In this document: positions 1-42,023 of the stretch, piece after piece | Position numbering within the stretch: the stretch's first letter is position 1 | Layout: each line of letters opens with the position of its first letter | Source of the DNA: a virus | Virus record (IMG/VR): IMGVR_UViG_3300047299_000293 | Span: 1 to 44,276 of that record | Length of the DNA stretch: 44,276 nucleotides | Reading direction: 5' to 3' (one strand) | The notes under the pieces: generated by a model | Told to the model about the DNA's origin: nothing | The model's input: the letters and a program-made list of their open reading frames with translations, nothing else | Database searches by the model: none | Translations under genes and position numbers: made by a program

Positions 1-918
1 TCAGCCACATTTACGCAACTTGCCTGGCTCAATGCGCATGGACACAGGCTTGTTGAGCATAGACAGCAGGATCATCGAGCGCCGTTCCGCATCGGCTGTT
101 TGGTAAATCGCCTCAATGCCAGCAAAGGGGCCATCGGTTATGATCACCTTGTCCCCTGCGGCAAAGAGCGCCTTGGGATTGGATTGCTGGAGCTGCTCAC
201 GCTCGTGCAGGTTCGTGATCAGATCGGTATCGACCTTGGCCGGGTGACCACCAAACTTGACGAGTTCACGCACGCCCAGCGTGGAGCGGATGGGTGACCA
301 GCTCTGGCCATTGCCTGTGGCATCCAATTGCACGAACACGTAGCTGGGGAACATGGGCTCGGCCACCACCGTCGGCTTGCCCCGGCGGGCCTTCTCCACA
401 TACAACATGGGCATGTAGCACCGAAAGTTCTGCCTCTGCAGGTTGGTGAGTGCCGTGTCTTCCTGCCTGCCCTTGGTATGGACCAGGTACCAAGCGTGGT
501 TAGGCTGCAGGCTCAGGTCAATGACTGCCGTGACTTTGGCTGGTGGCGCCTGAGCCGGTTCCTCTATTGGTATGGGGGCAGCACCCTTGACCTTGGGGGC
601 TGGCTTCAAGTCTTGCCGCTCGGCGGGTTTGAAGACCTCGGGGTTGCTTTCTATACCTTGGGTGTTGACACTCAGGTCGAGCGAGCGAGCAATGGCCCGG
701 ATCAGAGGCAGTGGCCGCTCGCGTTGCAGCACCTGCTTCAGCAGGGTCCGCAACTCGCGCTGTTCAAACGCCTCCAGGTCTTCCTGCCGGTAATGAACGG
801 ACAGCCCGTTCTGGAATATGGGCAGCCCATCGTCTTTCCAGCGCAGCTCCTGCAAGCTGCCGGGGGTCAGGCCCAAGCGCTCGGCAGCTTCTTGGGTCGT
901 AAGCAGCCGAGGAGTCAT
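1..918 (-). CDS. HTH-NusG/RfaH-like fusion, putative transcription antiterminator
   Basis: 305 aa, complete (TGA at the left edge). Residues 1-50 look like a MerR/excisionase-type helix-turn-helix (LLTTQEAAERLGLTPGSLQ, then YRQEDLEAF). A charged, Pro/Ala-rich linker covers about 60-135. Residues 141-240 match a NusG N-terminal domain (AWYLVHTKGRQEDTALTNL, then PMFPSYVFVQL), and 252-303 match a KOW domain (FAAGDKVIITDGPFAGIEAI). Specialised NusG paralogues such as RfaH bind RNA polymerase and suppress termination at chosen operons; here a sequence-specific HTH could supply the targeting. It lies beyond the terminator at 1041-1095, so it is probably its own transcript. A perfect palindrome at 937-952 sits just upstream. 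Domain calls are confident. The antitermination role, and whether it is phage or flanking host DNA, are inferred. Confidence 0.85.
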   Translation of the reverse strand: MTPRLLTTQEAAERLGLTPGSLQELRWKDDGLPIFQNGLSVHYRQEDLEAFEQRELRTLLKQVLQRERPLPLIRAIARSLDLSVNTQGIESNPEVFKPAERQDLKPAPKVKGAAPIPIEEPAQAPPAKVTAVIDLSLQPNHAWYLVHTKGRQEDTALTNLQRQNFRCYMPMLYVEKARRGKPTVVAEPMFPSYVFVQLDATGNGQSWSPIRSTLGVRELVKFGGHPAKVDTDLITNLHEREQLQQSNPKALFAAGDKVIITDGPFAGIEAIYQTADAERRSMILLSMLNKPVSMRIEPGKLRKCG

Positions 919-936
919 GTGTTGTTGCTCTTGTCA

Positions 937-952
937 TTCATGCCAGCATGAA
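937..952. promoter_or_regulatory. Perfect palindrome upstream of the HTH-NusG gene, putative operator
   Basis: TTCATGC-CA-GCATGAA is a perfect 7-bp inverted repeat with a 2-bp centre, 19 bases upstream of the start codon at 918. On the minus strand a TTGACT (971-976) followed by 17 bases places a weak -10 over the palindrome, as expected for a repressor-controlled promoter. Autoregulation by the protein's own HTH is a guess. Confidence 0.4.
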
Positions 953-1040
953 CGCTCTGCCGGGCAAACAAGTCAAGCGGAACAGGCGGCTGGCACAGAC
1001 CTGTAAGCAACACTGGCAGATCTACGTCAGAAACGACAAA

Positions 1041-1095
1041 AGACCCCGCCTGCGGTCCACCACCCCGGTGGGGATGGTGAACGCAGACGGGGTCT
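1041..1095 (-). terminator. Rho-independent terminator after the lysis genes
   Basis: Arms 1041-1054 and 1082-1095 pair over 14 positions with one mismatch, and the loop contains a nested CACC/GGTG hairpin. Read on the minus strand the stem is followed by TTTTGTCGTTTC. It lies 9 bases after the Rz stop codon, so it would end the lysis transcript and separate it from the HTH-NusG gene. Confidence 0.75.
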
Positions 1096-1103
1096 GGAAA
1101 TGA

Positions 1104-1640
1104 TCAAGGTTCGGGCACTGCAGGCTGTGCCGTGGCCTGCGCTTTGGCTTGTTCGACATACCAGCGCTGAAACGACAACACCATGAGCGTGGTGTCGGTC
1201 GCATCGCGGGCTAATTGCTCGCAGCCGATGGCACCCGCATCTCGGGCGGGATCAGGTACAGGGTTGGCGGGGGCTGCATCAGCGCTGGGGGCAGGCTCGG
1301 CAATGGCGGACACTGGACTGGCTGCATGACTGGCCGGGACGCACAAGCTGAGAGCGCTATCGCGCAACACAGGGGCACGGCGTGCCAATATGGATTTTTG
1401 GGTTTCATAGTCGGTCGAGATCTTCTGGTTGATGCGCTCTTGCTGAGTTTGGATCTGGGCTACATGCAGGGATTGGTTCAAGGCGGCGGTTTGCTGTTGC
1501 TGCCGCTCGACGTCCCACGCTTGCTGGACGTCCTGCTGTCCCTGCCGGAAGCCTGCCCCAAACAGGCCTGCAGCAAGCAGGATTGAGACGATCCATCGCA
1601 GGGGCAAGGCGCCAAGCCAAGGTAATAGCCACGAACTCAT
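1104..1640 (-). CDS. Rz-like inner-membrane spanin
   Basis: 178 aa from the ATG at 1640, preceded by GGAGG and overlapping the endolysin stop by ATGA. The open frame continues upstream but lacks a ribosome site. Residues about 13-31 form one N-terminal membrane segment. Residues 32-90 are Gln/Glu-rich and likely coiled coil (QQDVQQAWDVERQQQQ). The C-terminal part is Ala/Pro-rich. This is the i-spanin plan: membrane anchor plus periplasmic coil that joins the o-spanin and fuses the two membranes at the end of lysis. The o-spanin is encoded inside this gene in another frame. Sequence identity to lambda Rz is low, so the call rests on topology, position after the endolysin and the nested lipoprotein. 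Confidence 0.8.
   Translation of the reverse strand: MSSWLLPWLGALPLRWIVSILLAAGLFGAGFRQGQQDVQQAWDVERQQQQTAALNQSLHVAQIQTQQERINQKISTDYETQKSILARRAPVLRDSALSLCVPASHAASPVSAIAEPAPSADAAPANPVPDPARDAGAIGCEQLARDATDTTLMVLSFQRWYVEQAKAQATAQPAVPEP
1211..1408 (-). CDS. Rz1-like outer-membrane spanin lipoprotein, nested in Rz
   Basis: 65 aa, wholly inside the Rz gene in a different frame. A short charged start (MKPKN) and a hydrophobic stretch lead to the lipobox LSAC, with the lipidated Cys at residue 22. The predicted mature lipoprotein of 44 residues is very proline-rich (PPLPSLPP, MQPPP). Small size, lipobox, proline-rich body and nesting are exactly the Rz1 pattern. It would sit in the outer membrane and bind the C-terminus of the inner-membrane spanin. 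Confidence 0.85.
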   Translation of the reverse strand: MKPKNPYWHAVPLCCAIALSACASRPVMQPVQCPPLPSLPPALMQPPPTLYLIPPEMRVPSAASN

Positions 1641-2119
1641 GTGGCCTCCGGTGATAGGTTCAGCGGTGGGTCCAGCGCTTCGAGCTGGTACTTGTCGATC
1701 ATGGCGATCAACTTGTCTGCATAACGCGGGTCGGTGGCATAGCCGGCCTTGGCCACGGCTTGGGCGAAGGTTTTTCCTGTGTTGCAAGCAAAACAGGCGG
1801 CGTAGCGTTTGTTGCGGCGCAGAAACTGCCCATGGTCCACCAAGCAGGCCTGCCAATCGGGGTAGGCACGCCAGTCGGCCGGGATGACCACCCACTGCTG
1901 GTTCAGAAACTCTCGGGTGTTGAGCGTGATGCGCTGGCCCGTCCAGCTGCGGTCGGCCTTGATGCCAAAGAGGTTTTTAACCCGTTTGGCCAGACCCGAC
2001 TCACCCCAGCCGGATTCCAAAGCGGCTTGAGCCACCACAAAGCTGGCGGGAATGCCTGTCTGCGAGCGGCTGGCTTGGGCAGCTGGACCGATGAGCGCGA
2101 TGAAGTCTTGCGGTTTCAC
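1637..2119 (-). CDS. Glucosaminidase-type endolysin (FlgJ-like)
   Basis: 160 aa. The whole protein matches the glucosaminidase (FlgJ C-terminal, PF01832-like) fold: PASFVVAQAALESGWGESGLA with probable catalytic Glu35, then NLFGIKADRSWTG, and a tail with YATDPRYADKLIAMI typical of the family. It would cleave peptidoglycan glycan strands during lysis. No signal peptide is seen, so release through the adjacent holin is expected. It overlaps the holin stop (2116-2119) and the Rz start by ATGA junctions, giving the order holin, endolysin, Rz/Rz1. Confidence 0.88.
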   Translation of the reverse strand: MKPQDFIALIGPAAQASRSQTGIPASFVVAQAALESGWGESGLAKRVKNLFGIKADRSWTGQRITLNTREFLNQQWVVIPADWRAYPDWQACLVDHGQFLRRNKRYAACFACNTGKTFAQAVAKAGYATDPRYADKLIAMIDKYQLEALDPPLNLSPEAT

Positions 2120-2499
2120 AGCATCTCCTTCACGTCCTTGGCCACCTGGTCAATGGAGGCATCGCGGCGCTGGCCGATGAAGTTGAACACCCAGCGCACC
2201 ATGGCCCAACCGGGCAGACCACAGGCGAACATAAGCCCGCCAAGTGCGCACAAACCCACCGTAGAAAACGCCCAATGGTGCAAATGGAAATGCTCCACCG
2301 TGATGGCACCGCCCCCAATGCTGGAGACCACGGTGCTGATGAGCCCCACGGCCCATTCACGTTTGTCACGCGGCGGCGTCATGAGCATGACCACCACGGC
2401 GGCCAAAGTGGCCCCACTGGCCACGGCTGCTGCGGTGCCGCCAAAGGCCTTGTAGGCGACGGCTGCCCCTGCCACGCCAGAGCTTGTCGGTTCAGGCAT
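2116..2499 (-). CDS. Putative phage holin
   Basis: 127 aa from the ATG at 2499, which has GGAG 8 bases upstream (a TTG 12 bases earlier is less likely). Three hydrophobic segments at about 21-41, 50-67 and 77-103, a basic loop (RDKRE) between the first two, and a charged cytoplasmic tail ending DQVAKDVKEML. Small size, multiple membrane spans and coupling to the endolysin support a holin that forms the inner-membrane lesion. No family was recognised, so the call rests on topology and context. Confidence 0.75.
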   Translation of the reverse strand: MPEPTSSGVAGAAVAYKAFGGTAAAVASGATLAAVVVMLMTPPRDKREWAVGLISTVVSSIGGGAITVEHFHLHHWAFSTVGLCALGGLMFACGLPGWAMVRWVFNFIGQRRDASIDQVAKDVKEML

Positions 2500-2514
2500 A
2501 CGTTTCTCCAAAGT

Positions 2515-2544
2515 AAAAAATCCGCGCAGACCGAAGCCAGGCGG
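2515..2544 (-). terminator. Putative intrinsic terminator between radical-SAM gene and lysis genes
   Basis: Read on the minus strand: CCGCC-TGGC, a TTCG tetraloop, then GTC-TGCGCGG, giving about 8 pairs with one bulge and one mismatch, directly followed by ATTTTTT. It lies 40 bases after the radical-SAM stop and 15 bases before the holin start. Confidence 0.6.
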
Positions 2545-2584
2545 GTAGAAGTTGGGGTGAGTGGCAAATTGACTGTGTTTGGAC

Positions 2585-3943
2585 TCAGGCTGCGACAGTT
2601 CGGTCGTAGGCCAGGATCGGAATCACGCGTCTGGCACTTTGTTCCGGGACTCCATGGACCTGCCCGAAGATGTCTTTGCGATCGTCACGAAAGTCACCGT
2701 CGATGAAATATGGAATGCAAGCCGTTAGGTACTCGAGGGCTGCAGCCAAAAACGGCACGTTGTCCGAATAAGCTGCGTCGCAACCTGCATCCCACAGCGG
2801 TCCTTGCAAAAACATGCATGAACCCTTGCACAGTTGCAGCACCGGGCAACTGGGGCAATCGGGCCTGTGGCTCCAGTGCGTGGCGCTGCGCATCTTGACC
2901 GCCTGCAGGTTGGACAAATGGCCAATTTGGTGGGGCTGCCCATTGGGCGCAGTGGCTGCTGCGCTGACGTTCTGACAGGTGAGCACATTGCCGTGCAGGT
3001 CCACCGCCAGGTTGTTCAGCTTGTCCATGCCGCACTTTTGACCCAGCGAGGTTGCTGGTCGAGCTGAGCGGATAGACTGCACAAAGTCCATGATGCGCTG
3101 CTGCGCCACCGACATGCGCGAAGCCAGGCCCTGGCGCAGTTCTTTGTAGGCCAAGGCCCTGAAACGCACCTGGTCCTGCTTGGTTTGCAAGGTTGCAGCT
3201 AGGCCGCCTTCGTCATAGGGGTCAATGAATGCACCCTCCCCGATGTTCACATCCTGGCCAAACCGCTGCTGAATCCATGCCTGAATCTGCGCCCGGCTTT
3301 GATTGCTGGCATGGACCATGGCGTTGATGCTGATACGGCCCAGAGGATGCAAGCGGGCATACAGGTCCATGATGGCGGCGCATTTCTCAGGGTCGTTCAA
3401 TGGATCGGGTCCACGGGTCGACTGGCCCGGACCGTCGTGTGACAAACCCACAGAAAAACCCATGCGGTCGAGCCACTCGTTTTTCTGGGCATCGAGCAAG
3501 CTGCCATTGGTGATGACGCTGAACTGCGCGTCCGAGTACAAGTCACGCAGGCGTTCAGCCAACGGTTTGAGCGTCTTCCAGTACACCAGGGGCTCCCCGC
3601 CCCAGAACTCGATGCGCTCAGGTGGTTCAAGAAGCGCATCGGTCAGCTGACTGATAAACGGCTCGATGTCATCCGGGTTGCTCGAGTCCGCATACGGCAC
3701 AAAGCGCTGGTTGCAGTAACTGCATTCGTAGTTGCAAGACAGCCCCAGGCTGATCTTAAGGATGCGCACCTGACCCTTGCGGCCGGGTTGGCTGAACGAC
3801 ACCACCGTGGCATCCCGGAAACTGCCAGGCTGAACAGGCGCCACGGGTGTGCCGTCCTGCCAGGTCAGCGTGGACAACTGGTTGTTGTAGTGCAGCAAGA
3901 CTTTATGGCCATCTTGACGCAAGGCGTGAATCTGAAACTTCAT
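2585..3943 (-). CDS. Radical SAM/SPASM protein-modifying enzyme (maturase)
   Basis: 452 aa. The radical-SAM cluster motif CxxxCxxC is Cys70, Cys74, Cys77, and the SAM-contacting GGEP is at 115-118. The C-terminal SPASM motif is complete: Cys304, Gly318-x4-Cys323, then Cys363-x2-Cys366-x5-Cys372-x3-Cys376 and Cys388. This predicts two extra [4Fe-4S] clusters, as in anaerobic sulfatase-maturing enzymes and PqqE-type peptide maturases. Such enzymes modify peptide or protein side chains by radical chemistry (thioether, C-C, epimerisation, formylglycine). Residues 1-60 are an extra N-terminal region of unknown role. The start overlaps the upstream oxygenase stop (ATGA). No sulfatase, short precursor peptide or exporter is nearby. 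The substrate is unknown, with the Cys-rich fibre tip at 7048-7083 the best candidate. Confidence 0.92.
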   Translation of the reverse strand: MKFQIHALRQDGHKVLLHYNNQLSTLTWQDGTPVAPVQPGSFRDATVVSFSQPGRKGQVRILKISLGLSCNYECSYCNQRFVPYADSSNPDDIEPFISQLTDALLEPPERIEFWGGEPLVYWKTLKPLAERLRDLYSDAQFSVITNGSLLDAQKNEWLDRMGFSVGLSHDGPGQSTRGPDPLNDPEKCAAIMDLYARLHPLGRISINAMVHASNQSRAQIQAWIQQRFGQDVNIGEGAFIDPYDEGGLAATLQTKQDQVRFRALAYKELRQGLASRMSVAQQRIMDFVQSIRSARPATSLGQKCGMDKLNNLAVDLHGNVLTCQNVSAAATAPNGQPHQIGHLSNLQAVKMRSATHWSHRPDCPSCPVLQLCKGSCMFLQGPLWDAGCDAAYSDNVPFLAAALEYLTACIPYFIDGDFRDDRKDIFGQVHGVPEQSARRVIPILAYDRTVAA

Positions 3944-4548
3944 GAAAGGGCCTTTTGCGGCTCATGCAGCCGCGTTTTGAACACCAAGACAGGCCGCAGA
4001 TCACGGCAGGCACGGGAGATGGGGTTGACGCCATGGCGGATGTGCCCAGCAAAGAAAACCACCCGAGCGGGCGCGGGCATGACCGAGCCCAGCAGGCGAT
4101 CCTCCTGGTCGTAGAAAACTGTTTCTCCGCCCCACCCCGCTTGCCACTGCCGCACACCGTAGATCAACAGGGTCCTGTCCAGCGGGTGCTGGCTGTCGAT
4201 GTGGACATTGCCTTCATTGCCGTGGGTGTTGGCATTGGCGTAGACGCCATGGCACTGGGTCATGACGGGCAGTAGCAGCGCCCGCATGCATGACCGCCAA
4301 ACATCAGAGAGCACGCCCGCCTGCTGCTGAAGAAACTGCGGCGTGCAGCTGTAGTCTGAAGCGTGGTTGATGGGCCAGTCCCGACCCAATAATTCGCGGT
4401 GCCAAATCGGAAATGGCTCCGGCTCGTTTTTGTTGGTGATGCGGTGGTAACGGTACTGAAGGTGCTGCAGCCAATCGACGAGCTCCTGCGTTACGCCCGG
4501 ATCCAGAACGCCATCGGCGAATGAAACGGGACTGCGGGCGTCAAGCAT
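3940..4548 (-). CDS. 2-oxoglutarate/Fe(II)-dependent dioxygenase
   Basis: 202 aa from the ATG at 4548, with GGAGG 7 bases upstream. It has the prolyl-4-hydroxylase-like core: HID (His116, Asp118), a GGETVFYD strand (140-147), distal His172 in HIRHGVNPIS, and Arg185 thirteen residues later in RPVLVFKTR for 2-oxoglutarate binding. This iron site and spacing fit the 2OG-FeII_Oxy family, which hydroxylates amino-acid side chains in proteins or peptides. It is sandwiched between a second oxygenase-like gene (8-base overlap) and the radical-SAM gene (ATGA overlap), so it probably acts on the same target. The substrate is not known. Confidence 0.82.
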   Translation of the reverse strand: MLDARSPVSFADGVLDPGVTQELVDWLQHLQYRYHRITNKNEPEPFPIWHRELLGRDWPINHASDYSCTPQFLQQQAGVLSDVWRSCMRALLLPVMTQCHGVYANANTHGNEGNVHIDSQHPLDRTLLIYGVRQWQAGWGGETVFYDQEDRLLGSVMPAPARVVFFAGHIRHGVNPISRACRDLRPVLVFKTRLHEPQKALS

Positions 4549-5260
4549 GTCCTGCCTCCGGTTCTGCCACCGAGTGAAACTCGATGGCCAGGGTGTCGCG
4601 CGTCTGGGTGCGTAGCGGAAAGTAACCATGCGGCGTGCACAAAGGCATGGTTACAAGCAGGCCCGGCTGGGGCGTGATCGGGAAATGCACTGGTGTTTCC
4701 CAGGGCAACAGGGTTTCATTGGCCCGTTTAGCCGGATTCCCAATGACCATACAACCCGGCGTTCGAACATTGGGGCTGTCGGTCGTTGGGTAATCGGATT
4801 GCAAGAACAACACCGTATTGAGCCCAGCACGCGAGCTGGCAATGTGCTCAGCCACATGAAAGCCCGGCTGGCAGCGCATGATGTGGGCACTCAAACGGTA
4901 GCGGTATGTGCCCCAGATGGATTGCAGGTGCTCACGGACCACCGCCAACATGTCATGCAGACCATCCGCCGGGGATACGCCCCCCTGCAACAGGTCATGG
5001 CTGCGGCACTGCCAGGCTTCAGGCCCCCAGCGGTGCTCGGCGTCTTCCCGAAGGATGGCCTTTGCCAGTCGTTCAAGCCTTTCCGGCGACAAGCCAGAGG
5101 GCTGGACGTACACGGTGCTGGGCCATAAAGAAAAAACCCAACGCTGGTGTGACGTTGGGTGGTTCTCTGAGACGTCGGCTGATGCACCTGGGTGCGGACT
5201 GGCTTGTGTGGCCACCGCCATGATGGATGGCGGGGCGTGCGCTGATGCGTCAAATGACAT
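4541..5260 (-). CDS. Oxygenase-like protein, possibly 2OG-Fe(II) type
   Basis: 239 aa. The start at 5260 has AAGGAG and overlaps the upstream stop by 11 bases. Residues 1-40 look disordered. The rest resembles a double-stranded beta-helix oxygenase: GFHVAEHIASSRAGLNTVLF (134-152; His135, Glu138, His139), then GLLVTMPLCTPHGYFP (200-215; His211), and RDTLAIEF (221-228; Arg221). The distal His followed ten residues later by Arg is typical of 2OG oxygenases, but a clean HxD is not seen, so the first metal ligands are uncertain. A strong terminator-like hairpin (5131-5160) lies within codons 34-43. A cupin-like non-enzymatic protein is the alternative. Confidence 0.55.
   Translation of the reverse strand: MSFDASAHAPPSIMAVATQASPHPGASADVSENHPTSHQRWVFSLWPSTVYVQPSGLSPERLERLAKAILREDAEHRWGPEAWQCRSHDLLQGGVSPADGLHDMLAVVREHLQSIWGTYRYRLSAHIMRCQPGFHVAEHIASSRAGLNTVLFLQSDYPTTDSPNVRTPGCMVIGNPAKRANETLLPWETPVHFPITPQPGLLVTMPLCTPHGYFPLRTQTRDTLAIEFHSVAEPEAGHA
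5131..5160 (-). terminator. Terminator-like hairpin inside the oxygenase coding region
   Basis: Arms 5136-5143 and 5153-5160 (ACCCAACG/CGTTGGGT) are perfectly complementary over 8 bp with a 9-base loop. On the minus strand the stem runs straight into TTTTT, then CTTT. It lies about 100 bases into the first oxygenase gene. It could be an attenuator limiting expression of the two oxygenases and the radical-SAM gene, or the relic of a terminator at the edge of an inserted cassette. Confidence 0.6.
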
Positions 5261-6239
5261 GAATCACTCCTTGGGCCAGTGCGGTGACGGCCCCAAATCC
5301 AAATTGAAGGTGCAGGTTTTCTCCAGCACGCAGGCCCAGGGACAGGGCCCGAATTTGGGCTCTTCCTGCAGTCATCCGGACGCGTTGGTGTGGGACATAG
5401 CCCGAGACGGCGTGCACATTCAGCCAGGCATCGGCGGGCTCTGAAGCCCGGATTTCGAGCTCCACCCACTGGTCTGTAGCAACCTCTGACGGTGCTTGCA
5501 CGGTGAGCTTGGGCATGCGTTCGTGCAGCCGGGTGATGGTGTGGGCATGCTGGGTCAATGCGTCACTTGGCTTGGCATAAGTTACGTACTCATCCACTTG
5601 TAGGTTGGTCCAAAGTGGTCCGCCTGGGTGAGCGTTGATGCGCAGAACCATCTGGGCGCTGAGCGGCGATTCATGCCATGGCACCAGACATGACCCGGCA
5701 ACCAAGTGCATCTGACGCGCCTTGGTGAGTGGCAAAGCCAAGGCGGTAAAGCCCTCGCTGTCTACCCGGCTGCTGCGGGTGACCACATGGCGATTGAAGG
5801 GTGTCATGAAGCGCCAGGTATCTGTGCACAGCACAAACATCCACGCGGCCCAATCACTCAGGTGCTCCCCATACATGCGGGGCTTGGCGCGCATGGCCTG
5901 TGGGTCGAGGGCGATTTCATCGACCAGGCCCCACGGCACACCATCAATGGTCTCGGTGTGGACGGATGGCATGTCCAGTCTGACCGGCAAGATATAGGGA
6001 CTGGGCTGGCCGCGTCTGAGCAATGAATGCGCTTTGAGGATTGATGCGCCTAAAGGATGTGCCCGATACTGCTTTTGGGTCACTTGGCCGACCGAACGGT
6101 CTGGCCTGAGCGACTCCAATGGCTCCCACAGCCGCCAGGTCAGGCGATCCGTTTCAGCCAGGACCTCCACAGCCAGCGGCTGCGTGAATTCATCGACCCG
6201 CTGTACGAAGCGCGCACGGACAATTTCAGTACCGCTCAC
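5250..6239 (-). CDS. Unknown phage protein with C-terminal beta-rich domain
   Basis: 329 aa from a GTG start at 6239 that overlaps the previous stop (GTGA) and has GGAGG upstream; upstream in-frame codons lack a ribosome site. No family recognised. Residues 1-240 are mixed and Trp/Met-rich (WAAWMFVLCTDTWRFMTPF). Residues about 245-329 read like an Ig-like beta-sandwich (KLTVQAPSEVATDQWVELEI, then LRAGENLHLQFGFG). It belongs to the tightly overlapping gene chain leading to the oxygenases and radical-SAM enzyme, so it may be a structural tail component or an accessory to the modification system. No signal peptide or membrane segment is seen. Confidence 0.7.
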   Translation of the reverse strand: MSGTEIVRARFVQRVDEFTQPLAVEVLAETDRLTWRLWEPLESLRPDRSVGQVTQKQYRAHPLGASILKAHSLLRRGQPSPYILPVRLDMPSVHTETIDGVPWGLVDEIALDPQAMRAKPRMYGEHLSDWAAWMFVLCTDTWRFMTPFNRHVVTRSSRVDSEGFTALALPLTKARQMHLVAGSCLVPWHESPLSAQMVLRINAHPGGPLWTNLQVDEYVTYAKPSDALTQHAHTITRLHERMPKLTVQAPSEVATDQWVELEIRASEPADAWLNVHAVSGYVPHQRVRMTAGRAQIRALSLGLRAGENLHLQFGFGAVTALAQGVIHVI

Positions 6240-7030
6240 ACCCGCACCTCCAGCTCTTCGACACCGCTGAACCACTTGAAACCCAACTTGATCTTGGCCA
6301 GAGCACCAGCGTCTGCGCCAAAGAGCGTGACAAGGGCTTGCCCTTGTTCCAGGTTTGGTCGGCTGTTGCTCAGGGCTCCGGCTGTGGTGCTCAGAAGCAC
6401 CTGCCCTGACACCGGGAGCACCATCCCCTGATCATTGACCGCCGTGATGCGGATGCGCCGGGGATCACCACCTTCATCGACCAAACGAAACGAGGGAAAC
6501 GCCAGAGCCATGGCAACCGAATTGCTTTCCCACTCTTGGTCAAACTCAAAACCCATCACCTCGGTTTGAACCGCTTGGGGAGAGCACATGAGCACCAGGG
6601 AAGGCTCCAAACCCAACGGTGGAATCCAAAACTGGGCCAAGACCAGCATGGGCTGCTGGTTCCAGTACTGCCGAAACCCTTCTTTAGACAAGGCAGTTTG
6701 CGCGAACTTGTTGATCCACACCGGCTCGCGCTCCCCTTGACGCAGTGCAAAGAGCCAAACGGTGTAGGCATTGCCGGGATCTTGCGCGAAGTTCTGCAGG
6801 TCACTTACTGTGACAGCATGGACAAATGCGCTTTGATGGCCGACCAACATCGGCGCAGACGATTCATCAATGACCCGACCACTTTCATCCAAGGCTTGCT
6901 CAAAAGCAGGCGTGAGGTGTTCGATCAAGAAATCGCCCTCCACCTTCTGAATGCGAATGAGGTTGGTTCGGTGCGCGTTTGTTGTGCTCGCAGGGCTTTG
7001 CATCGGATAAGACATGCGTATGGTTTTCAT
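6236..7030 (-). CDS. Unknown phage tail-region protein with C-terminal Ig-like domain
   Basis: 264 aa from the ATG at 7030 (AGGGGAT upstream). The frame is open for a further 16 codons into the fibre gene, but those codons come from the Cys-repeat DNA. It starts 14 bases after the fibre stop. Residues about 180-264 resemble a bacterial Ig-like/filamin-type sandwich (RIRITAVNDQGMVLPVSGQV, then ALVTLFGADAGALAKIKLG). The N-terminal part is not recognised. A short stretch, LVDEGG followed by basic residues, also appears near the fibre C-terminus. It may be a fibre-associated or fibre-maturation protein; the function is unknown. Confidence 0.7.
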   Translation of the reverse strand: MKTIRMSYPMQSPASTTNAHRTNLIRIQKVEGDFLIEHLTPAFEQALDESGRVIDESSAPMLVGHQSAFVHAVTVSDLQNFAQDPGNAYTVWLFALRQGEREPVWINKFAQTALSKEGFRQYWNQQPMLVLAQFWIPPLGLEPSLVLMCSPQAVQTEVMGFEFDQEWESNSVAMALAFPSFRLVDEGGDPRRIRITAVNDQGMVLPVSGQVLLSTTAGALSNSRPNLEQGQALVTLFGADAGALAKIKLGFKWFSGVEELEVRV

Positions 7031-7044
7031 GAGCAAATCCCCTT

Positions 7045-7980
7045 TCAGCAGCCACAGCAGTTGCAATTGCAGTTGCAATTGGTCAGCACATTCACCGTGC
7101 GCAACCGCACCTGTCCACCTTCATCAACCAGTTCGTAGTCATGCCGGGTTGTGATGTTGCCGCTGCCATAGCAATTGATGGCATAACCAGTGCCTGCGCA
7201 ATTGGCCACTTGCTTAAAGAAGTAGTCGTGCAGCCAACCATAGTTGGCGGTCCACATGGAGCCGCCGTTGTTCATGTACATGTCCCAATTGCCGTCGGTC
7301 TTCAAAAACCCCATCAGGTTGCTGTTGACGTGCAGGTAACGGGTGCTGCCCTGGTCTGTGTCGTAAAAGTCGATCGTGGGCGAGGTGCTCTGTACGGTCT
7401 GACTGGGCAATGTCAGGCGCCCACTCATGCTGTCGCCAGTACGCGCTACCCGCCCCGACAAATCGATGTTGACCGTGGCGTTGCCGTTCGCGTCCGGACC
7501 ACCACCGTTAACCGAGCGGACAAAGGCCGAGGCATCGTAGCCGTCCAGGCGGTCTGCGTCCATCGCCTTGGCATTGATACCCAAATAGGCCGAGTTGTGG
7601 TTGTGTGAAGCTGAAGCAAAAGCACTGGCGTGCTGACCGTCGAGCAAGTCGGCATCGAGCCCGGAGCCCGCGCCATCCACCGTGAGCAGTTTGGCCAGCA
7701 CGTCCGCTGCTGTGTAAGCAGCCGCATTGAGCTTGACCGCGAACTGGGCATCGATCCCACTGGCCAGGTCCATGATGAAGCGCCAGTTGTCCGGGTTGGT
7801 ACCAATCAGCTGGTAAAGCTTGAGCTGGTCCGTGCGGTAGCACAGCATGCCCACTTGCTGGTTGGTCGTCGGAAATGTGGTGCCGCTGTTGCAGGAGATC
7901 GCCGTCTTGTCGTTGTTCAGGATCTCGATGAGCGAGTCAGACAGCGTGCGCGACGACGGTATGTCGGTGAAGTTTTGCAT
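7045..7980 (-). CDS. Tail fibre/receptor-binding protein with Asn-Cys-rich C-terminal tip
   Basis: 311 aa. The N-terminal part (NSGTTFPTTNQQVGMLCYRT, then LKLYQLIGT) is typical of a phage fibre attachment region. The middle has two fibre repeats of the LLDGQHASAF/RLDGYDASAF type, an HNHN motif like those near metal-binding fibre tips, and SGRVARTGDSMSGRLTLPSQ. The C-terminal region is Gly/Asn/Trp-rich with Cys263 and Cys273. The last twelve residues are Thr, four Asn-Cys pairs, then Cys-Gly-Cys. This tail is unlike ordinary fibre tips or chaperone domains. The five genes directly downstream form an overlapping chain ending in two oxygenase-like enzymes and a radical-SAM/SPASM maturase. Confidence 0.85.
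   Translation of the reverse strand: MQNFTDIPSSRTLSDSLIEILNNDKTAISCNSGTTFPTTNQQVGMLCYRTDQLKLYQLIGTNPDNWRFIMDLASGIDAQFAVKLNAAAYTAADVLAKLLTVDGAGSGLDADLLDGQHASAFASASHNHNSAYLGINAKAMDADRLDGYDASAFVRSVNGGGPDANGNATVNIDLSGRVARTGDSMSGRLTLPSQTVQSTSPTIDFYDTDQGSTRYLHVNSNLMGFLKTDGNWDMYMNNGGSMWTANYGWLHDYFFKQVANCAGTGYAINCYGSGNITTRHDYELVDEGGQVRLRTVNVLTNCNCNCNCCGC
7048..7083 (-). repeat. Asn-Cys repeat at the fibre C-terminus (12-bp DNA repeat)
   Basis: Codons 300-311 of the fibre gene. The DNA contains the 12-base unit GTTGCAATTGCA nearly twice, giving alternating Asn (AAC/AAT) and Cys (all TGC) codons, then Cys-Gly-Cys before TGA. Six of the last ten residues are Cys. TTGCAA is self-complementary, so the tract could expand or contract by slippage. 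In sequence composition it resembles the core of a ribosomally made, post-translationally modified peptide. Confidence 0.8.
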
Positions 7981-8020
7981 GGTGAGTGGGTGGGTAAGTG
8001 ACTGAGGTACATGGGAGCTA

Positions 8021-9373
8021 TCAGTACCCCTGAGCGATCCAGGTGAAGGTGCCGGTCACGCGAGCGCCAGCGGTGTTTTCTAAAACTGCCGTGAAGCCTG
8101 TTCGGGTGACTGCACTGGATAGGCGCGGGATGGCGACCACCGTGCCGCCCTTGTGGGTCATGGTCACCTCGGGCGGCACCCTAAAAATTCGGGAAAAGCC
8201 GATAACAGCCTCTGCCTGCGCATCGATGATCTGCACAGTGCCCCGGTCAAAGACATCGGGCACATCCACCGTCACGCGCAGCGCGTCAATAAAACCCCGG
8301 TCGGAGTTTCTGGACTTCAAGATGGCGCGGAATAAGGCGCGCTGGTAGGTGTAGTCACCCTGAATGAAGTCCCGGAAATCCGTGTAGCCCGGGGGATGGC
8401 CCGCTTCGACGATGCTTGCAAAGTCGGCCTCGGTGATCTCAGTGCTGGCCACGATCATGTCGCTGATCACACCGTTGGCGTGGCGGCGGTACTGCTCAGC
8501 GAGCGCCAAGGCTTCATGGGCCTTGAGGCGCATCGCCCGGTGCAGGGCATCCGAGACACCCAGCCCTTCTTGCAAGAGCCGCCTGTACGCCACTGTGCGG
8601 CCCAAGGTTTCGGCAAACGCCAGTGCCTCGGCCACCTGTTTGACGGATTGGCGACTGAGCTGATCGCTCGTGGTGAATGCCTCAGGGACTGGCTTTTGAA
8701 GCCGTTTGGCGGTCTGATCGCTCACAGCCAAACCCTCGCTGATGCGCAGGATGAAGGCGATCAGGTCGTAATAAGTTTCGGCAAAATTCAGCGCTTCGGA
8801 GACCTGTTTGCTGAAGCGTTGATCCAGGTCATCGGTCAAAGCCACCTTTTCAGTGAATGCTTTGGCAGATACCCGCGCGGATACCGATGACACCTGCAGG
8901 TTCTCAGCATGCTTTTGGCGCATCTGCCGCGACAGGCCTTCGGTGACAGACAGGCCTTCTTGCAGGGCTTTGGCCACCAAGCGGGCCAAGCCGTCCAGCG
9001 TTTGGAGGTTTTCTTGAACAGACTTGCTGCTCGACTTGGCAACGCCCTCAGTCACCCCAATCGACTCAACCCATCGCAAAACATAGGCGATCAGGTCGTA
9101 GTAGGTGTCGGCAAACCCGATTGACTCCGTCTTTTGCAGCGTGGCCTGATGACGCCGGGTTTCTGCAAGGGACAGAGTTTCGCCAATACGCTTGCCATGC
9201 TGAAGACCTGACGTGTGCGTCCAAGCCAGCGTGGCAGCCACTGCGACCACATAGACAGCGGGGTAAGCCGTGAGCCACGATTTGCCCGCACTGGCGCTAT
9301 GCCAAGTGAAACTGGCATTGGCCCAGGTGTAGCGCGGCCCTTGGGACTCGCCTACGGTGACCGTCTCGACCAT
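8021..9373 (-). CDS. Phage tail protein with about 13 tandem 18-residue repeats
   Basis: 450 aa. Residues 63-305 are about 13 tandem units of 18-20 residues with pattern xxExLxxx(E/D)xLxRxxxK, for example LQEGLSVTEGLSRQMRQK and VSEALNFAETYYDLIAF. Three units carry a longer variant with YYDLIA or TVAYRR. Residues 1-60 are Trp-rich (YTWANASFTW). The C-terminal region (335-450) begins PPGYTDFRDFIQGDYTYQRALF and ends in a beta-rich domain (FTAVLENTAGARVTGTFTW) plausible for virion assembly. Position between J-distal and fibre genes suggests a shaft-like or spacer virion protein. It starts 5 bases from the preceding gene's stop. Exact role unknown. Confidence 0.75.
   Translation of the reverse strand: MVETVTVGESQGPRYTWANASFTWHSASAGKSWLTAYPAVYVVAVAATLAWTHTSGLQHGKRIGETLSLAETRRHQATLQKTESIGFADTYYDLIAYVLRWVESIGVTEGVAKSSSKSVQENLQTLDGLARLVAKALQEGLSVTEGLSRQMRQKHAENLQVSSVSARVSAKAFTEKVALTDDLDQRFSKQVSEALNFAETYYDLIAFILRISEGLAVSDQTAKRLQKPVPEAFTTSDQLSRQSVKQVAEALAFAETLGRTVAYRRLLQEGLGVSDALHRAMRLKAHEALALAEQYRRHANGVISDMIVASTEITEADFASIVEAGHPPGYTDFRDFIQGDYTYQRALFRAILKSRNSDRGFIDALRVTVDVPDVFDRGTVQIIDAQAEAVIGFSRIFRVPPEVTMTHKGGTVVAIPRLSSAVTRTGFTAVLENTAGARVTGTFTWIAQGY
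8459..9187 (-). repeat. Tandem 18-20-residue protein repeats
   Basis: DNA encoding residues 63-305 of the preceding protein: about 13 diverged units, most exactly 18 codons, a few 19 or 20. The conserved positions are Glu at 3, Leu or another hydrophobic at 5, an acidic residue near 9, a basic residue near 13 and often Lys at 17. DNA identity between units is low, so duplication is old or under selection at the protein level. Confidence 0.7.
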
Positions 9374-9378
9374 GGCGA

Positions 9379-9825
9379 TCAGCTCATGGTGAAGGTGAAC
9401 ACTGCCGTAAGGCTGTCGTCCGCCCCCTTGTTCACCACCGGGAACACCACCCTGTCGAGCATGATGCCGCCCGATGCGGCATTGAACACCCCAGCTTCCG
9501 TGATCGCCCCCGTGCCATCGCCTGCAGGGAAGTCGGCGGTGAAGCTGAAGGCCTTGGTGCCCACCGCGTGCGCGTAGGTGGCGGCGTTTCGGTCGAGCTC
9601 GGAGACCAGGGCCGACTGGCTGGCCGCAGCCGCCGTGGTGCCCGTGCCCAGAGCGATGAAACCCATGACCGAGGGACGACTGGCTGATTTGCCGATGGCA
9701 TCGGCGATGAAATCAAAGCCAACGTTGACGATGATGTTGTCTTTGTGAACGGTTTCGATGTCGCCACTGGCGCGTCGAACAATGAGGGTCATCGCCCCCT
9801 GCAGTTGCATGGTTTCGTCAATCAT
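9379..9825 (-). CDS. Phage tail-associated protein, unknown
   Basis: 148 aa from the ATG at 9825 (AAGG upstream); the frame is open 65 codons further, into the J gene, without a ribosome site. The sequence is beta-rich: GAMTLIVRRASGDIETVHKD, IADAIG, FIALGTGTTAAAA, TGAITEAGVFNAASGGIML, ending in a strand FTFTMS. The FIALGTGTT...EAGVFN pattern is common in small phage proteins encoded next to tail-tip and fibre genes. No specific function can be given; a virion accessory at the tail tip is likely from position. Confidence 0.65.
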   Translation of the reverse strand: MIDETMQLQGAMTLIVRRASGDIETVHKDNIIVNVGFDFIADAIGKSASRPSVMGFIALGTGTTAAAASQSALVSELDRNAATYAHAVGTKAFSFTADFPAGDGTGAITEAGVFNAASGGIMLDRVVFPVVNKGADDSLTAVFTFTMS

Positions 9826-9849
9826 GTAGTGCCTTAAAAGTGAATTGCT

Positions 9850-9875
9850 AAAAAAATCAGCGCACTGCTCAGTGC
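9850..9875 (-). terminator. Weak terminator-like hairpin at the end of J
   Basis: GCACT-GCTC-AGTGC (62-66/71-75 within 9862-9875) is a 5-bp stem overlapping the J stop codon. On the minus strand it is followed after five bases by a run of seven T. The stem is short, so termination would be partial at best. Confidence 0.35.
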
Positions 9876-12800
9876 AGCCGCAAACTGCTGAACGCACCCA
9901 CGGGCTCAAGCCGTGCGCTGGCCGACTGGACACCGCCGCCCATCCGGGCGGCAAAGAGGCGGCGTTCTGTGCTAGTCTGGCAAACCCCCAGGCAGATCCG
10001 ATCGGATGCTTCCAGTTCAAATGCGAGCGTGATTCGCCGGGACAAATGGTCTTCCAGAAAGAAGCCTTGGGTTTGGGCGTCGTAGCCCAGCAGCAAATGG
10101 CCGACTGGCCCTGTTGCTTTCCAGATCACGCAAGTCGTGACCTCTTGGGGGATGAACCAGAACGAGGTGTGGAACACCTGCGGCAGGCTCACAGTCCAGG
10201 CCACCTGGGTGGTGTCCTTGACCATCAGCCCCTTGCCGTAGCGGCCATCGCCGTAACTCACGCCCGCCGACTGGATCGTTACTGCATTGCCAATGCCCAT
10301 CACAGATCCGCTGAGCCGCCAGCCGTAGAGTTCACCCGGGTGCAGCACATCCTCTCGCGCCATCTGAAACCGCGCATCCACGTTGGCGATGGCGCCGTCG
10401 TAGGTCCACTGCCGCCGGGCGGCGTCACCGCTCCAGACAAAGTTGGCTTCCTGCCAGGTGGTGCGGTCATCGACCGAAGCGCCCAGACTGCTGAGCAAGG
10501 TGTTCTGTGCCCGGATGGGCGAGACCAGATCCAACTCGAACAGGTATTCGGCCACTTGCGCGCCGGTGTTCATGCGCAGCACGTTTTTGCCATTGACCGT
10601 GACCACCGAGGCGAAGTGCTTGGTGCCAGCAAAGCCCCCTGCTTGCTCGTCACGCTCGAGGATCAGGTTGGCGTTTTGCGGCTGAGCCACCACGGTCGAG
10701 ACGAAAGTGGGCGTGTCGCTGTAGATCCCGGGCGAGGCGATCGCCTTGATCCAGAACTTGCGCTCGCCATCAAATCCGGAGGGCAGCGTGTAGCTGGTGG
10801 ACTTGACCTCGGCCACAAACAGCGATGCGTCCCATGCCGCACCTTCTCGCAGCTCATAGCCCACCACCTCGGGCTCTGGGTTGGGTTGCCAGCGAAACTC
10901 CAGCCGGTTGGCCGACTGCACGACATCGAACTGGCGCACCGTGGCCGGGGCCAGCAAGGTCAGCACAAAGGTGTTGACATGCGCGCTGTATTGGCCCGAG
11001 GTGTCATAAGCGCGGATGTGGTACGGGTACTGCCCGGCCGCGTCCTGGTCGTGGACCATCTGGGTGCCCGAGGTCTTGGCGACCAGTAGGGCGTCGTCCC
11101 AGCCTGGCCCCACTCTCACCTCATAGCCCGCCAGATCGGCATCGGGCAGTTCGTCCCAGCTCAGCAGCAGATCGGACATGCGCCGCTGCACGGTAAAGCC
11201 GGTCACATCCGACGGGGGCAGTGTCTTGCCCAGCACCGTGGCGCTGAGTGTGGCGGGCGCACTTTCTTTGCGGGTGATGCCGATGGCCTTTAAGCTGAAC
11301 TCATACTCCCCCTCTTGTGCATCCCGGATTTCTGCGTAATTGGCGCTCACCAGCGGCAGGCTCTCGAAATTGCCACCGCCTACCCGGTAAGCAAGCCGGT
11401 AAGCAATGGCACTAGGTACCTCAGCCCAGGACAGTTGCACCAGCACCTGCGCCCGGTCTTTGACCCGGTACAGGCTCTCTCGCATGCTGAGGGCCGTGGG
11501 GGCGGCAGGCATGTCCGACAGCACCGTGATGGCGCGCGGCTGCAGCGCCAGGCCCTCTTCAATGGCCGCGTACTTGCCCGGGTTGTGGGCCAGAGCCGTG
11601 ACTTCATGCACACCGGGCTCGCGCTCGGCCGCTGACACCACCCGAAACAGTTGTGGCACGATGATGGAAGAAGCCAGTACCCAAATGGCATCGGTTTGCG
11701 GCGCCATGCTGAAGGGGATGGTGACCGTGAGGGTTCGCCGAGCGTGTGCATCACCACTGGACGCAGCGAAGGTAGCCCCCACCAGGCGCTCTTCTACACT
11801 GCCATTGGGCAAGATCACCGAAAGCCACCAAGGCAAATCGGCTGGCAAATCCTGGTCCAGGGTAACGCTGGTGGTGGTAGCTGCTGCGACGCGCCCCCCA
11901 AGGCGCATGCCGCCCCGACTTGGGTCAGCCACCTGGATGACATCGCCCGGGCGCACCACTGCGCCTTCCAATCCTGTTCGGAAGGTGATGATTTCTGATT
12001 CAGACTGCTCGGAATACAGCAGCCACTTGCCCACCCGGTTGGCCTGCCCGCGCGAGGTGCAGCCCATGGCCACCACATCGGCTTGCACCACGCCGTAACG
12101 AGCGATGCCTACGACGTCCTCAACGTATTCCACCTTCTGCCTGTAAAAATCCTCCGGATCGACCCAGCTGACCAGGGCCACGGTGTGCCGGGCTTTGGCA
12201 GACGAGCCCTGGTAGGCGAACTCGCCATCGATGACGTTGGCAGCGGTGAATTGGTAGACCGGGTCTTGGGGCGCATCTTGCGTGACGGTGATGGCTCCAC
12301 CCGACCAATAGGCCATGCCCCGAAAGACCGAAGCCATGTCCTGCACCACCTTGTAGGCCTGCTCGCGTGTTTGCAGGTAGAGGTTGCAGGTGAAGCGAGG
12401 CTCGAGACCACCCAGGCCATCGGGCACGAATTCGTCACAGTAACGGGCCACCCGGTACAGGGCCCACTTGTCGACCTGGGACTCAGGGATGAAATGCCCC
12501 AAGCCATAACGGGTGTTGGTGACCAGATCGTAAAAACACCAAGCCGGGTTATCCGTCCAGGCCACCTTGAAGGTGCCATCCCAGACACCCGCGTATGAAC
12601 GGGACTCGGATTCATAGTTGGACGGCACCCGCACACGCAGGAGTTTGAGCTCGTAGCTGCGCCGGGGGATGGCGTTGAACTGCGAGGCGTCCACCCGCAA
12701 GGCCATCAGGGCGCTGTTGGGGTAGCGCAGCTTGCTTTCGATGACCTCAGTGTACGAGTCCAGAAAGGTCTTGTTTTGCAGGCTGCTTTGGGTCGCGTCC

Positions 12801-28540: not shown

Positions 28541-28610
28541 CTCAATCGTCTTTCAAGGAATAAGCGACAGCTCGAAAAATTGACTTGGCTTCATCTTGAT
28601 TCAGAGCGTC

Positions 28611-28628
28611 AATCCATCACATTGGATT
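28611..28628. promoter_or_regulatory. Inverted repeat upstream of the DUF6900 gene
   Basis: AATCCA-TCACAT-TGGATT is a perfect 6-bp inverted repeat 19 bases before the ATG at 28647, in the 106-base divergent gap with the HNH gene. A TTGACT lies at 28580-28585. The site may be an operator or a short leader hairpin. Confidence 0.3.
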
Positions 28629-28646: not shown

Positions 28647-28853
28647 ATGAAACAAAACAAGGACCTGAACAAGCTGCTGGAGCAGATCGCCAAAGAGCAC
28701 TTGTTCATCGAAACGCTGGAGACCCAGCACCGTGATCGCCTGGACTTCCACGACGTCGCAGTCTGGTCCATCAAGGGCGCACTGGAGGCTGCTTACGCCG
28801 CAGGGATCGAAGCAGCAAAAAACACATCAACAACATCGAAAGGCAAACAATGA
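28647..28853 (+). CDS. DUF6900-like small protein
   Basis: 68 aa from ATG 28647 with AAAGGA upstream. KDLNKLLEQIAKEHLFIETL and TQHRDRLDFHDVAVWSIKGA match a small helical family (DUF6900) common on proteobacterial phages and plasmids, often next to DUF3489. Function unknown. First gene of a three-gene plus-strand unit opposed to the surrounding minus-strand phage genes; its stop overlaps the next start by ATGA. Confidence 0.8.
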   Translation: MKQNKDLNKLLEQIAKEHLFIETLETQHRDRLDFHDVAVWSIKGALEAAYAAGIEAAKNTSTTSKGKQ

Positions 28854-29293
28854 AACTCACGGACACTCAACGCGCGCTGCTTGAAGCCGCTGCGCAGCAT
28901 CCTCAAAAGAAACTGACCAACTTCCCCGACACCCTCAAGGGTGGTGCACGCATCAAGGTGCTCACGGCCATGCGCAACGCACAGCTGATTGAGGCCAGCG
29001 CGTCAGAGCCCGAGGTGTACCTGGCCACAGCCACAGGATTGCAAGAGATTGGCATCACCACTGAGCAATCACGCACAACTCGTGAAGGCACCAAGCAGGC
29101 CCTGCTGATCGAGCTGCTCAGCCGCGCCGAGGGCGCTACGTTGCCTCAGATGACCAAGGCCACAGGGTGGCAGGTCCGCACGGTGCGCGGCGCGATGGCA
29201 GGCGCGCTCAAAAAGAAACTGGGGCTGGAGATCACCTCAGAGAAGCAGACCGGCACAGACCGCGTCTACCGCATCACCACCCCAACCGTTTGA
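28850..29293 (+). CDS. DUF3489 domain protein
   Basis: 147 aa. The C-terminal half carries the DUF3489 winged-helix-like pattern: GTKQALLIELLSRAEGATLP, QMTKATGWQVRTVRGAMAGA, LKKKLGLEITSEK. The N-terminal half, LTDTQRALLEAAAQHPQKKL, looks like a related second helical domain. A DNA-binding role is plausible but not established. Coupled by ATGA to the DUF6900 gene. Confidence 0.85.
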   Translation: MKLTDTQRALLEAAAQHPQKKLTNFPDTLKGGARIKVLTAMRNAQLIEASASEPEVYLATATGLQEIGITTEQSRTTREGTKQALLIELLSRAEGATLPQMTKATGWQVRTVRGAMAGALKKKLGLEITSEKQTGTDRVYRITTPTV

Positions 29294-37694: not shown

Positions 37695-38288
37695 ATGAGC
37701 CAACTTGCCCAATCCATCCTCTCGCAAGCGCAATCCCTCCCCGAGGGAGGGCTGCTCTCGCCCAAGGAGTTCCTGCACCTGGGCTCTCGGGCTGCGATTG
37801 ACCAGACCCTCTCCCGTCTGGCACGTGAAGGCCTGCTGCTCAGGGTTGGTCGTGGCGCTTACGCCCTGCCGGTTCAGGGCCGCTTTGGCGTGCGTCCGCC
37901 CTCGACCGAATCCGTGGTGGAAGCGATCGAGTCCACCAGTGGGGAGACTGTGGTGGCCAGCGGCGCTGCCGAGGCCAATGCGCTGGGCTTGACCACACAG
38001 GTGCCCACACGCGAGGTCTACCTGACCTCTGGCCCTTCCCGGCGACTGAAACTGGGGAACCGGGAGGTGGAACTCAAGCACGGCAACCGCTGGCAGATGC
38101 TGCTGGGCAAGCGCCCAGCTGGCAAAGCCATCCGTGCGCTCATGTGGTTTGGCCCCGAACAAGCGCCCAAGGTTTTGCAAGTGCTCAGGAGCAAACTGCC
38201 CAGCCAGGAATGGGAGGCCATGCGCCAAGCTCGTGCGGGATTGCCCAGCTGGATGGCCAAAGCAGTAAGCGAGGTGGCCATTGGCTGA
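37695..38288 (+). CDS. abiEi: AbiEi-type antitoxin/repressor (DUF6088-like)
   Basis: 197 aa. The N-terminal winged helix (LSPKEFLHLGSRAAIDQTLS, LAREGLLLRVGRGAYALPV) and middle SVVEAIESTSGETVVASGAA, ANALGLTTQVPTREVYLTSG are typical of AbiEi/DUF6088 type IV antitoxins. They neutralise the toxin without binding it and repress the operon. The operator lies just upstream and the toxin gene overlaps its end by 8 bases. Likely gives the lysogen abortive-infection protection. Confidence 0.88.
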   Translation: MSQLAQSILSQAQSLPEGGLLSPKEFLHLGSRAAIDQTLSRLAREGLLLRVGRGAYALPVQGRFGVRPPSTESVVEAIESTSGETVVASGAAEANALGLTTQVPTREVYLTSGPSRRLKLGNREVELKHGNRWQMLLGKRPAGKAIRALMWFGPEQAPKVLQVLRSKLPSQEWEAMRQARAGLPSWMAKAVSEVAIG

Positions 38289-41783: not shown

Positions 41784-42023
41784 ATGACAGCCCCTCTGAA
41801 CCCCTCCACAAGCCACGCCGGAAAGCGCTCCGAAAAGAGCGGTTTTCTTTCCCTATCGCAGATCAGCGAATTGATGGCCCATGGCGCCGTCGATCAACAC
41901 AAGCAGCTGACCGAAGCCCACAGCAGTCAGGTTTACGCCACTGACCTTGATGAATTCGTCGACTCCCATGCCTGGCAGAGCGTGAATGTGAACCCGTCTA
42001 CAGAACAAGGAGTTCACCCATGA
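41784..42023 (+). CDS. Small unknown protein opening the integration cassette
   Basis: 79 aa from ATG 41784; longer upstream extension lacks coding character. KSGFLSLSQISELMAHGAVD and SSQVYATDLDEFVDSHAW suggest a short helical protein. Its stop overlaps the DUF2924 start (ATGA), so it is translationally coupled to the recombinase operon. A recombination directionality or control factor is possible but unproven. Confidence 0.6.
   Translation: MTAPLNPSTSHAGKRSEKSGFLSLSQISELMAHGAVDQHKQLTEAHSSQVYATDLDEFVDSHAWQSVNVNPSTEQGVHP

Follow-up and report, generated by a model that had tools for sequence, protein, structure and literature searches.

An RfaH protein with an added excisionase-like domain at a phage edge, a candidate gene for switching on the polysaccharide coat of the host

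The HTH-RfaH gene of the viral record

The IMG/VR virus contig IMGVR_UViG_3300047299_000293, whose full 44,276 bases form the window of this study, begins with a gene (1-918, minus strand; stop codon at 1-3) whose product of 305 aa is predicted to be an RfaH protein carrying an added excisionase-like winged helix-turn-helix (HTH) at its N-terminus, and which is named HTH-RfaH here. Its relatives in bacterial genomes typically lie between phage genes and a polysaccharide (EPS) operon, and the explanation that we favour, with moderate confidence, is that HTH-RfaH is borne by a mobile element and activates the neighbouring EPS operon via an ops element. As such, it may be a candidate gene with which a virus switches on the coat of its host. 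RfaH is known as a free-standing protein, which is recruited to RNA polymerase when this pauses at ops and which counteracts pausing and termination. The portions of the literature available on RfaH fusions, phage RfaH, excisionase-RfaH, Limnohabitans prophage EPS and the trio described below contain no HTH-RfaH fusion, and one report describes rfaH-like genes on prophages, as well as a cluster that adjoins an HTH gene in unfused form (PMC7593976).

The minus strand of the window encodes phage terminase, portal, tape-measure, J-like fibre and endolysin proteins (Pfam, PHROG). The upstream neighbour of HTH-RfaH is the last phage late gene (1104-1640, minus), named spanin-like from its position, beside the endolysin, a glucosaminidase (1637-2119, minus; Pfam PF01832, PHROG endolysin), while a large serine integrase (42454-43842, plus; PHROG integrase, E 5e-102) occupies the opposite end of the phage. 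The record stops at base 1 with the stop codon of HTH-RfaH, and the recombinase-ParB-RepB trio, ops and EPS operon are not within the window but are features of relatives.

Domain architecture and selective constraint

Profile searches bear out the fusion of an HTH with NGN-KOW domains that an earlier note on this DNA had proposed. Pfam HTH_17 matches residues 5-54 (757-906, minus) with 28.6 bits against a cutoff of 27, and reaches only 18 bits, under the cutoff, in the clade-2 protein of L131. The NusG/NGN model covers residues 142-236 (211-495, minus) with 77.4 bits. The KOW or RfaH C-terminal domain (residues 243-305; 4-192, minus) is sub-threshold in Pfam (13.4 vs 22.3 bits), and the NCBIfam RfaH model TIGR01955 spans residues 143-297 with 174.4 bits (cutoff 144.5). 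PRK09014 scores 158.8 (cutoff 124), and the cutoff of the curated RfaH model is also passed by clades 2 and 3. HTH-RfaH stays far under the cutoffs of the NusG, LoaP and UpxY models (50 of 125 bits for LoaP and 71 of 100 for UpxY).

An AlphaFold model from a 31-row alignment (mean pLDDT 63.8) was used, an earlier 12-row model (pLDDT 47) being too poor. It predicts a winged HTH at residues 1-56 (block means of pLDDT 73-83) and an NGN domain (70-90). The C-terminal domain, which in RfaH is an autoinhibitory alpha-helical hairpin able to turn into a beta barrel, is modelled poorly, with blocks of 31-54 from residue 251 and a mixture of helix and strand. When aligned with VIA-align, residues 3-58 resemble the excisionases 8c3t (Z 8.3), 8dgl (Z 7.7) and Pukovnik Xis 4j2n (Z 7.1), and residues 140-294 resemble E. 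coli RfaH (5ond, Z 14.7); the assignment of the N-terminus as an HTH has thus survived a structural check. The 90-residue linker described earlier has to be divided. Residues 81-140 (499-678, minus) do form a variable, proline-rich linker, with pLDDT in the 30s over 81-130, but residues 57-80 (679-750, minus) form a conserved helix, in which R68, P69, L70, L72, R74 and A77 are invariant across the three clades (alignment A4).

The median dN/dS among 12 clade-1 sequences is 0.055 for the HTH, 0.056 for residues 57-80, 0.253 for the linker, 0.066 for NGN and 0.065 for KOW. The HTH is under constraint equal to that of NGN, and the low values in each half argue that both the HTH and NGN-KOW are in use.

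Relatives and the origin of the fusion

The fused form is found on 23 viral contigs (eight close relatives, five at about 50% and ten of a third clade), and the relatives of HTH-RfaH fall into three clades. Host genomes came from a close-relative scan of genome contigs and from overlapping samples around a Limnohabitans parvus genome (399 genomes of the family, 90 of the genus and 399 of the order). Ten of them carry the fused gene (G001, G002, G003, G004, G214, G297, G432, G457, G470 and G584), which is frameshifted in G297; excluded from this count were L014 and G005, where the contig begins inside the gene, and G625 and G702, which have no HTH.

A tree built from 78 NGN-KOW sequences gathers the fused rows into one set inside RfaH (support 96/91), composed of 18 fused, two HTH-less partial and two plain sequences. 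Since the fused rows are grouped in one supported set, the tree fits a single fusion followed by losses, with four changes as the minimum.

Gene neighbourhood

A link with phages, which the earlier note had asked to have checked, holds in these genomes: the immediate upstream neighbours of the fused gene are co-oriented phage late or lysis genes in 10/10 host genomes, the evidence in G001 being the lysis-gene end alone at a contig edge. A fused gene without a phage was found in none of the ten, across the family, genus and order samples and the genome-contig scan. The type of upstream phage varies: clade 1 has lysis genes of the window type, clade 2 and part of clade 3 have a 3TM-type holin, and the remaining copies follow tape-measure or other genes.

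Downstream, a trio of serine recombinase, ParB-like and RepB-like genes is present in all ten genomes (ParB2 is truncated in G003 and the recombinase frameshifted in G297), and an EPS operon comes after the trio in nine, several of these operons starting with a MarR_EPS-type regulator (equivalog match). The order shared by the three clades is phage late genes, HTH-RfaH, recombinase, ParB1, ParB2, a plain RfaH in clade 2, ops and EPS.

The trio itself is widespread, with its recombinase in 46/399 family genomes at E 1e-60, and a small cysteine-rich frame often precedes it in place of HTH-RfaH (L071-L100). According to PADLOC, HTH-RfaH, the recombinase and ParB1 match no defence family, and ParB2 has one weak match. 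In L194 (4546-6059), HTH-RfaH and the recombinase are separated by about 1.6 kb that contain a glycosyltransferase-like frame, and in L195 and L200 (about 2.1-3.3 kb) the gene just upstream of HTH-RfaH resembles the one that adjoins a plain RfaH on the distal side of EPS loci (G297, 1221602).

G412 has a near relative of the window phage, 96-98% identical to it in tape measure and J, with SspB in the place of HTH-RfaH, and in G416 a DNA methyltransferase was recognised by eye at that place. The corresponding regions are L117 19065-20000 for SspB, which belongs to phosphorothioation defence, and L116 18417-20000 for the methyltransferase, again by eye. Seven records are matched by the integrase and have no HTH-RfaH, most of them stopping short of that end. 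In G584, HTH-RfaH, the trio, a plain RfaH, ops and EPS are all intact beside a decayed prophage, where homologues of the window terminase, portal and tape measure were not found. A second copy in G004 (C3:199312-199700, in L120), beside a decayed phage and an EPS locus, is missing HTH-RfaH and the recombinase, a deletion that makes the promoter run into the middle of ParB1. In G625, an HTH-less close relative stands directly before ops and EPS. The SspB and methyltransferase swaps, the intact locus of G584, the deletion in G004 and the HTH-less relative in G625 fit a candidate mobile gene of the conversion type that may have gained lasting use at the EPS locus.

Direct repeats marking the phage ends were not convincing in either G297 or G004. 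In G003, tRNA-end repeats lie outside HTH-RfaH and its truncated trio, but they are part of a composite island: three fragments like tRNA 3' ends surround the prophage, defence genes and further recombinases (contig 1, 878600-957467; L053-L057).

The ops element and its expected recognition

Downstream of the trio, the leader of the EPS operon contains an exact ops element, GGCGGTAGCGTG, in 8/10 host genomes. The exact 12-mer occurs 17 times over 1.8 Mb on both strands (overlapping sources), and 14/58 plain rfaH genes of the group have ops within 500 bases. An RNA hairpin just before ops was not above shuffles. Three genomes count against an activation of EPS by the fused protein: ops in G457 is a two-mismatch version, the region downstream of HTH-RfaH and its truncated trio in G003 is without ops or EPS, and the relative that directly precedes ops and EPS in G625 is the HTH-less one, on a 15.6-kb contig where no trio or phage gene was recognised.

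In E. coli RfaH, the ops contacts are K10, H20, R23, Q24, T68 and N70-V75 (PMC5995543). K10, R23, Q24, T72, G74 and V75 are kept in 18/18 fused rows, whereas N or H occupies position 20 and L, V or I position 73 (H and R in E. coli). The plain RfaHs of the hosts that stand beside ops share N20 and mostly lack R at 73, and R70/S71 is common to them and the fused proteins. Apart from variable positions such as 73, the fused proteins match the host plain RfaHs found before canonical ops, and because of this equality of contact residues, recognition of ops by HTH-RfaH is the default expectation, short of proof.

Promoter-like motif, palindrome and terminators

A promoter-like motif of a mobile-element family, TTGACTT-N11-AGAGCGTTCAT (948-976, minus), is kept upstream of HTH-RfaH in all clades. 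In its general form, TTGRCTT-N11-AGMGCSTTCAT, it is present in 30/31 upstream regions, G457 being the exception; L002/L012 and L132/G584 look like duplicate strains, so such counts contain non-independent rows, and L196 was mapped but left out of one upstream-region table. The 90 genus genomes contain 21 exact copies in 13 genomes and no reversed motif. Judged by eye from the first downstream frame, six copies precede HTH-RfaH or a remnant of it, five the leading gene of an integrase operon, three an AlpA-like gene, six short genes as in the operon at 28.6 kb in the window or similar, and one a gene like 28850-29293. The promoter family of L219-L239, to which the window motif belongs, is common to integrase operons, AlpA-like genes and others.

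Two further copies are present in the window. One with two mismatches (28585-28613, plus) precedes a small phage operon (a short gene, then 28850-29293), and in L222 a gene similar to that short gene is preceded by the exact motif. The other, a degenerate copy with four mismatches (41959-41987, plus), precedes the gene leading the integrase operon; similar leading genes have the exact motif in L221, L229 and L232-L234. Shuffling by triplets produced 0.1 sites per window with two mismatches and 1.2 with four; the copy at 41959-41987 is therefore not significant alone. Of 60 regions upstream of plain rfaH, none has the motif within one mismatch, and of 28 trio loci lacking HTH-RfaH, none has it within two (about 1.5 kb of flank), while the 29th trio locus examined has both the motif and HTH-RfaH. 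The trio was rejected as the carrier of the promoter because of its absence from these 28 loci. It counts against the favoured explanation that the motif has a poor -10 ([GC]TTCAT) and that a generic promoter scan missed 948-976.

The palindrome TTCATGCCAGCATGAA (937-952), to which the earlier note drew attention, is indeed perfect and has no second perfect copy in the window. Among the upstream regions, however, just 4/22 have perfect arms. It was rejected as an operator on account of this poor conservation, the adjoining promoter motif being the conserved part.

Between the lysis genes and HTH-RfaH lies a predicted intrinsic terminator (1041-1095, minus), with a hairpin of -49 kcal/mol (z -7.1; 0/200 shuffles as good) and TTTT on the late-gene strand. 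A comparable hairpin precedes the clade-2 and clade-3 copies, and some clade-1 copies are without it. On the basis of this terminator and the motif family, HTH-RfaH is predicted to be a separate transcription unit with a mobile-element promoter, insulated from late transcription by a strong terminator, and the terminator-isolated transcript suggested earlier therefore holds at the level of sequence. The other internal terminators that had been listed fared less well: sites at 5.14 and 9.86 kb were recovered, but the scan of 1-12000 gave 12 terminator-like sites in total against 11.7 expected in shuffles, and none lies at 2.5 kb.

Proposed mechanism and alternative explanations

According to the favoured explanation, HTH-RfaH would be transcribed in the lysogen from its own promoter of the phage family, with the terminator shielding it from the late operon. 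Its NGN-KOW part would join RNA polymerase at ops in the EPS leader downstream of the trio and carry it through the long EPS operon. The HTH would most likely bind near its own promoter, which could provide autoregulation, tie expression to the resident element and keep the factor local; the conserved motif may be its target, since AlpA-like genes have the same promoter and the same type of fold. The benefit would be an altered host coat, which could for instance guard against superinfection. If this is true, a prophage-linked element controls a host EPS locus, and through the conserved HTH fusion a processive antiterminator would gain a second DNA address. The questions then arise whether docking at a promoter can direct an elongation factor to its target, and whether prophages alter the host coat by antitermination instead of by sugar-modifying enzymes.

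A possible but unlikely alternative is that the gene is a host RfaH of the EPS locus, and that related serine-integrase phages integrate beside it at a hot spot next to its promoter. The EPS operon and ops downstream of HTH-RfaH, as well as the presence of phages of several lysis types at one place, are in line with this, and so is the finding of SspB or a methyltransferase at this position in near-identical phages. Moreover, the homology of G412 to the HTH-RfaH loci breaks off within the motif, following GAGCGTT, so that an attachment site there keeps some probability. However, the best mirrored half of the motif at the integrase end has 11-14/30 mismatches against shuffled means of 13.3-14.4, not beyond chance, for which the motif was rejected as an integrase attachment site. 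The fused gene occurs without a phage in 0/10 host genomes, and its promoter is that of mobile-element genes, missing at the 60 plain rfaH loci and at 28/28 trio loci free of HTH-RfaH. Of the earlier suggestion of a host gene at a prophage edge, what remains is that relatives of the gene lead into a host-type EPS operon with ops; its promoter points to a mobile element. The other role that had been suggested, that of a phage late antiterminator with the late operon as its target, is very improbable. The NusG-family fold and the location where the late region ends would suit such a protein, but HTH-RfaH is set apart from the late genes by its own promoter and strong terminator, exact ops is absent from the 44,276-base window, where one-mismatch sites are at chance, the gene is intact in G584 beside a prophage without recognisable head genes, and two near phage relatives hold other genes at its place.

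The HTH has also to be considered as a targeting device. It could dock on TTGRCTT-N11-AGMGCSTTCAT, in the manner of Q or AlpA, and so make the protein a DNA-targeted loader that antiterminates phage operons too. Its resemblance to folds of the excisionase or AlpA type suggests such a role, as does the occurrence of the motif before HTH-RfaH and several phage operons, and a study of P. aeruginosa AlpA describes antitermination from an element between -35 and -10 (PMC7969949). Nevertheless, the motif is present also in genomes without HTH-RfaH, and the window copies at 28585 and 41959 are imperfect, with two and four mismatches, so we consider a loader of this kind quite improbable. A combined action, in which the HTH docks on mobile-element promoters (those of integrase-operon and regulator genes) and loads NGN-KOW there, and the protein joins polymerase again at the EPS ops, is also improbable in our judgement. 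Were it true, one prophage-linked factor would couple phage-gene expression with control of the host surface polysaccharide.

Comparison with known systems

HTH-RfaH is close to E. coli RfaH (TIGR01955/PRK09014): its NGN-KOW part shares about 40% identity with enterobacterial RfaH, the positions that contact RNA polymerase and ops are largely kept, and a canonical ops is ahead of a polysaccharide operon in its relatives. It differs in the winged HTH, the conserved helix, the linker and the mobile-element promoter, and in being flanked by a phage and the recombinase-ParB-RepB trio. Residues 3-58 have the winged-HTH fold of RdfS, the GIsul2 excisionase and Pukovnik Xis (Z 7.1-8.3), but unlike the free-standing excisionases, AlpA and HTH_17 regulators, this HTH is fused to an elongation factor. 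LoaP and UpxY are likewise specialised NusG paralogues encoded near their target operons; HTH-RfaH bears an HTH and scores far below their cutoffs.

Phage Q proteins are DNA-loaded antiterminators. By analogy with Q and P. aeruginosa AlpA, HTH-RfaH may join a DNA-binding module to antitermination in a phage setting, whereas its body is an NGN-KOW of the RfaH type, and ops is situated in the EPS leader rather than among the late genes. Morons are lysogenic-conversion genes found where the late region ends, each with its own promoter and terminator. HTH-RfaH resembles them in its own promoter-like motif and its terminator at the late end, and in the variable genes found there, including SspB and a methyltransferase. 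It is a candidate moron which, unlike the known ones, would activate a neighbouring host-type operon and not encode a converting enzyme.

Other genes of the window

The window also contains an AbiEii-type toxin gene (38281-39294, plus; PADLOC E 1e-98) next to a frame in the AbiEi position (37695-38288, plus), and the region 37695-39294 is predicted to be a phage-borne abortive-infection pair. Finally, genes for a radical SAM protein and a 2OG-Fe(II) oxygenase (Pfam) were identified in the tail and lysis region (2585-4629, minus), and this gene pair is also kept in the phage relatives L117 and L120.
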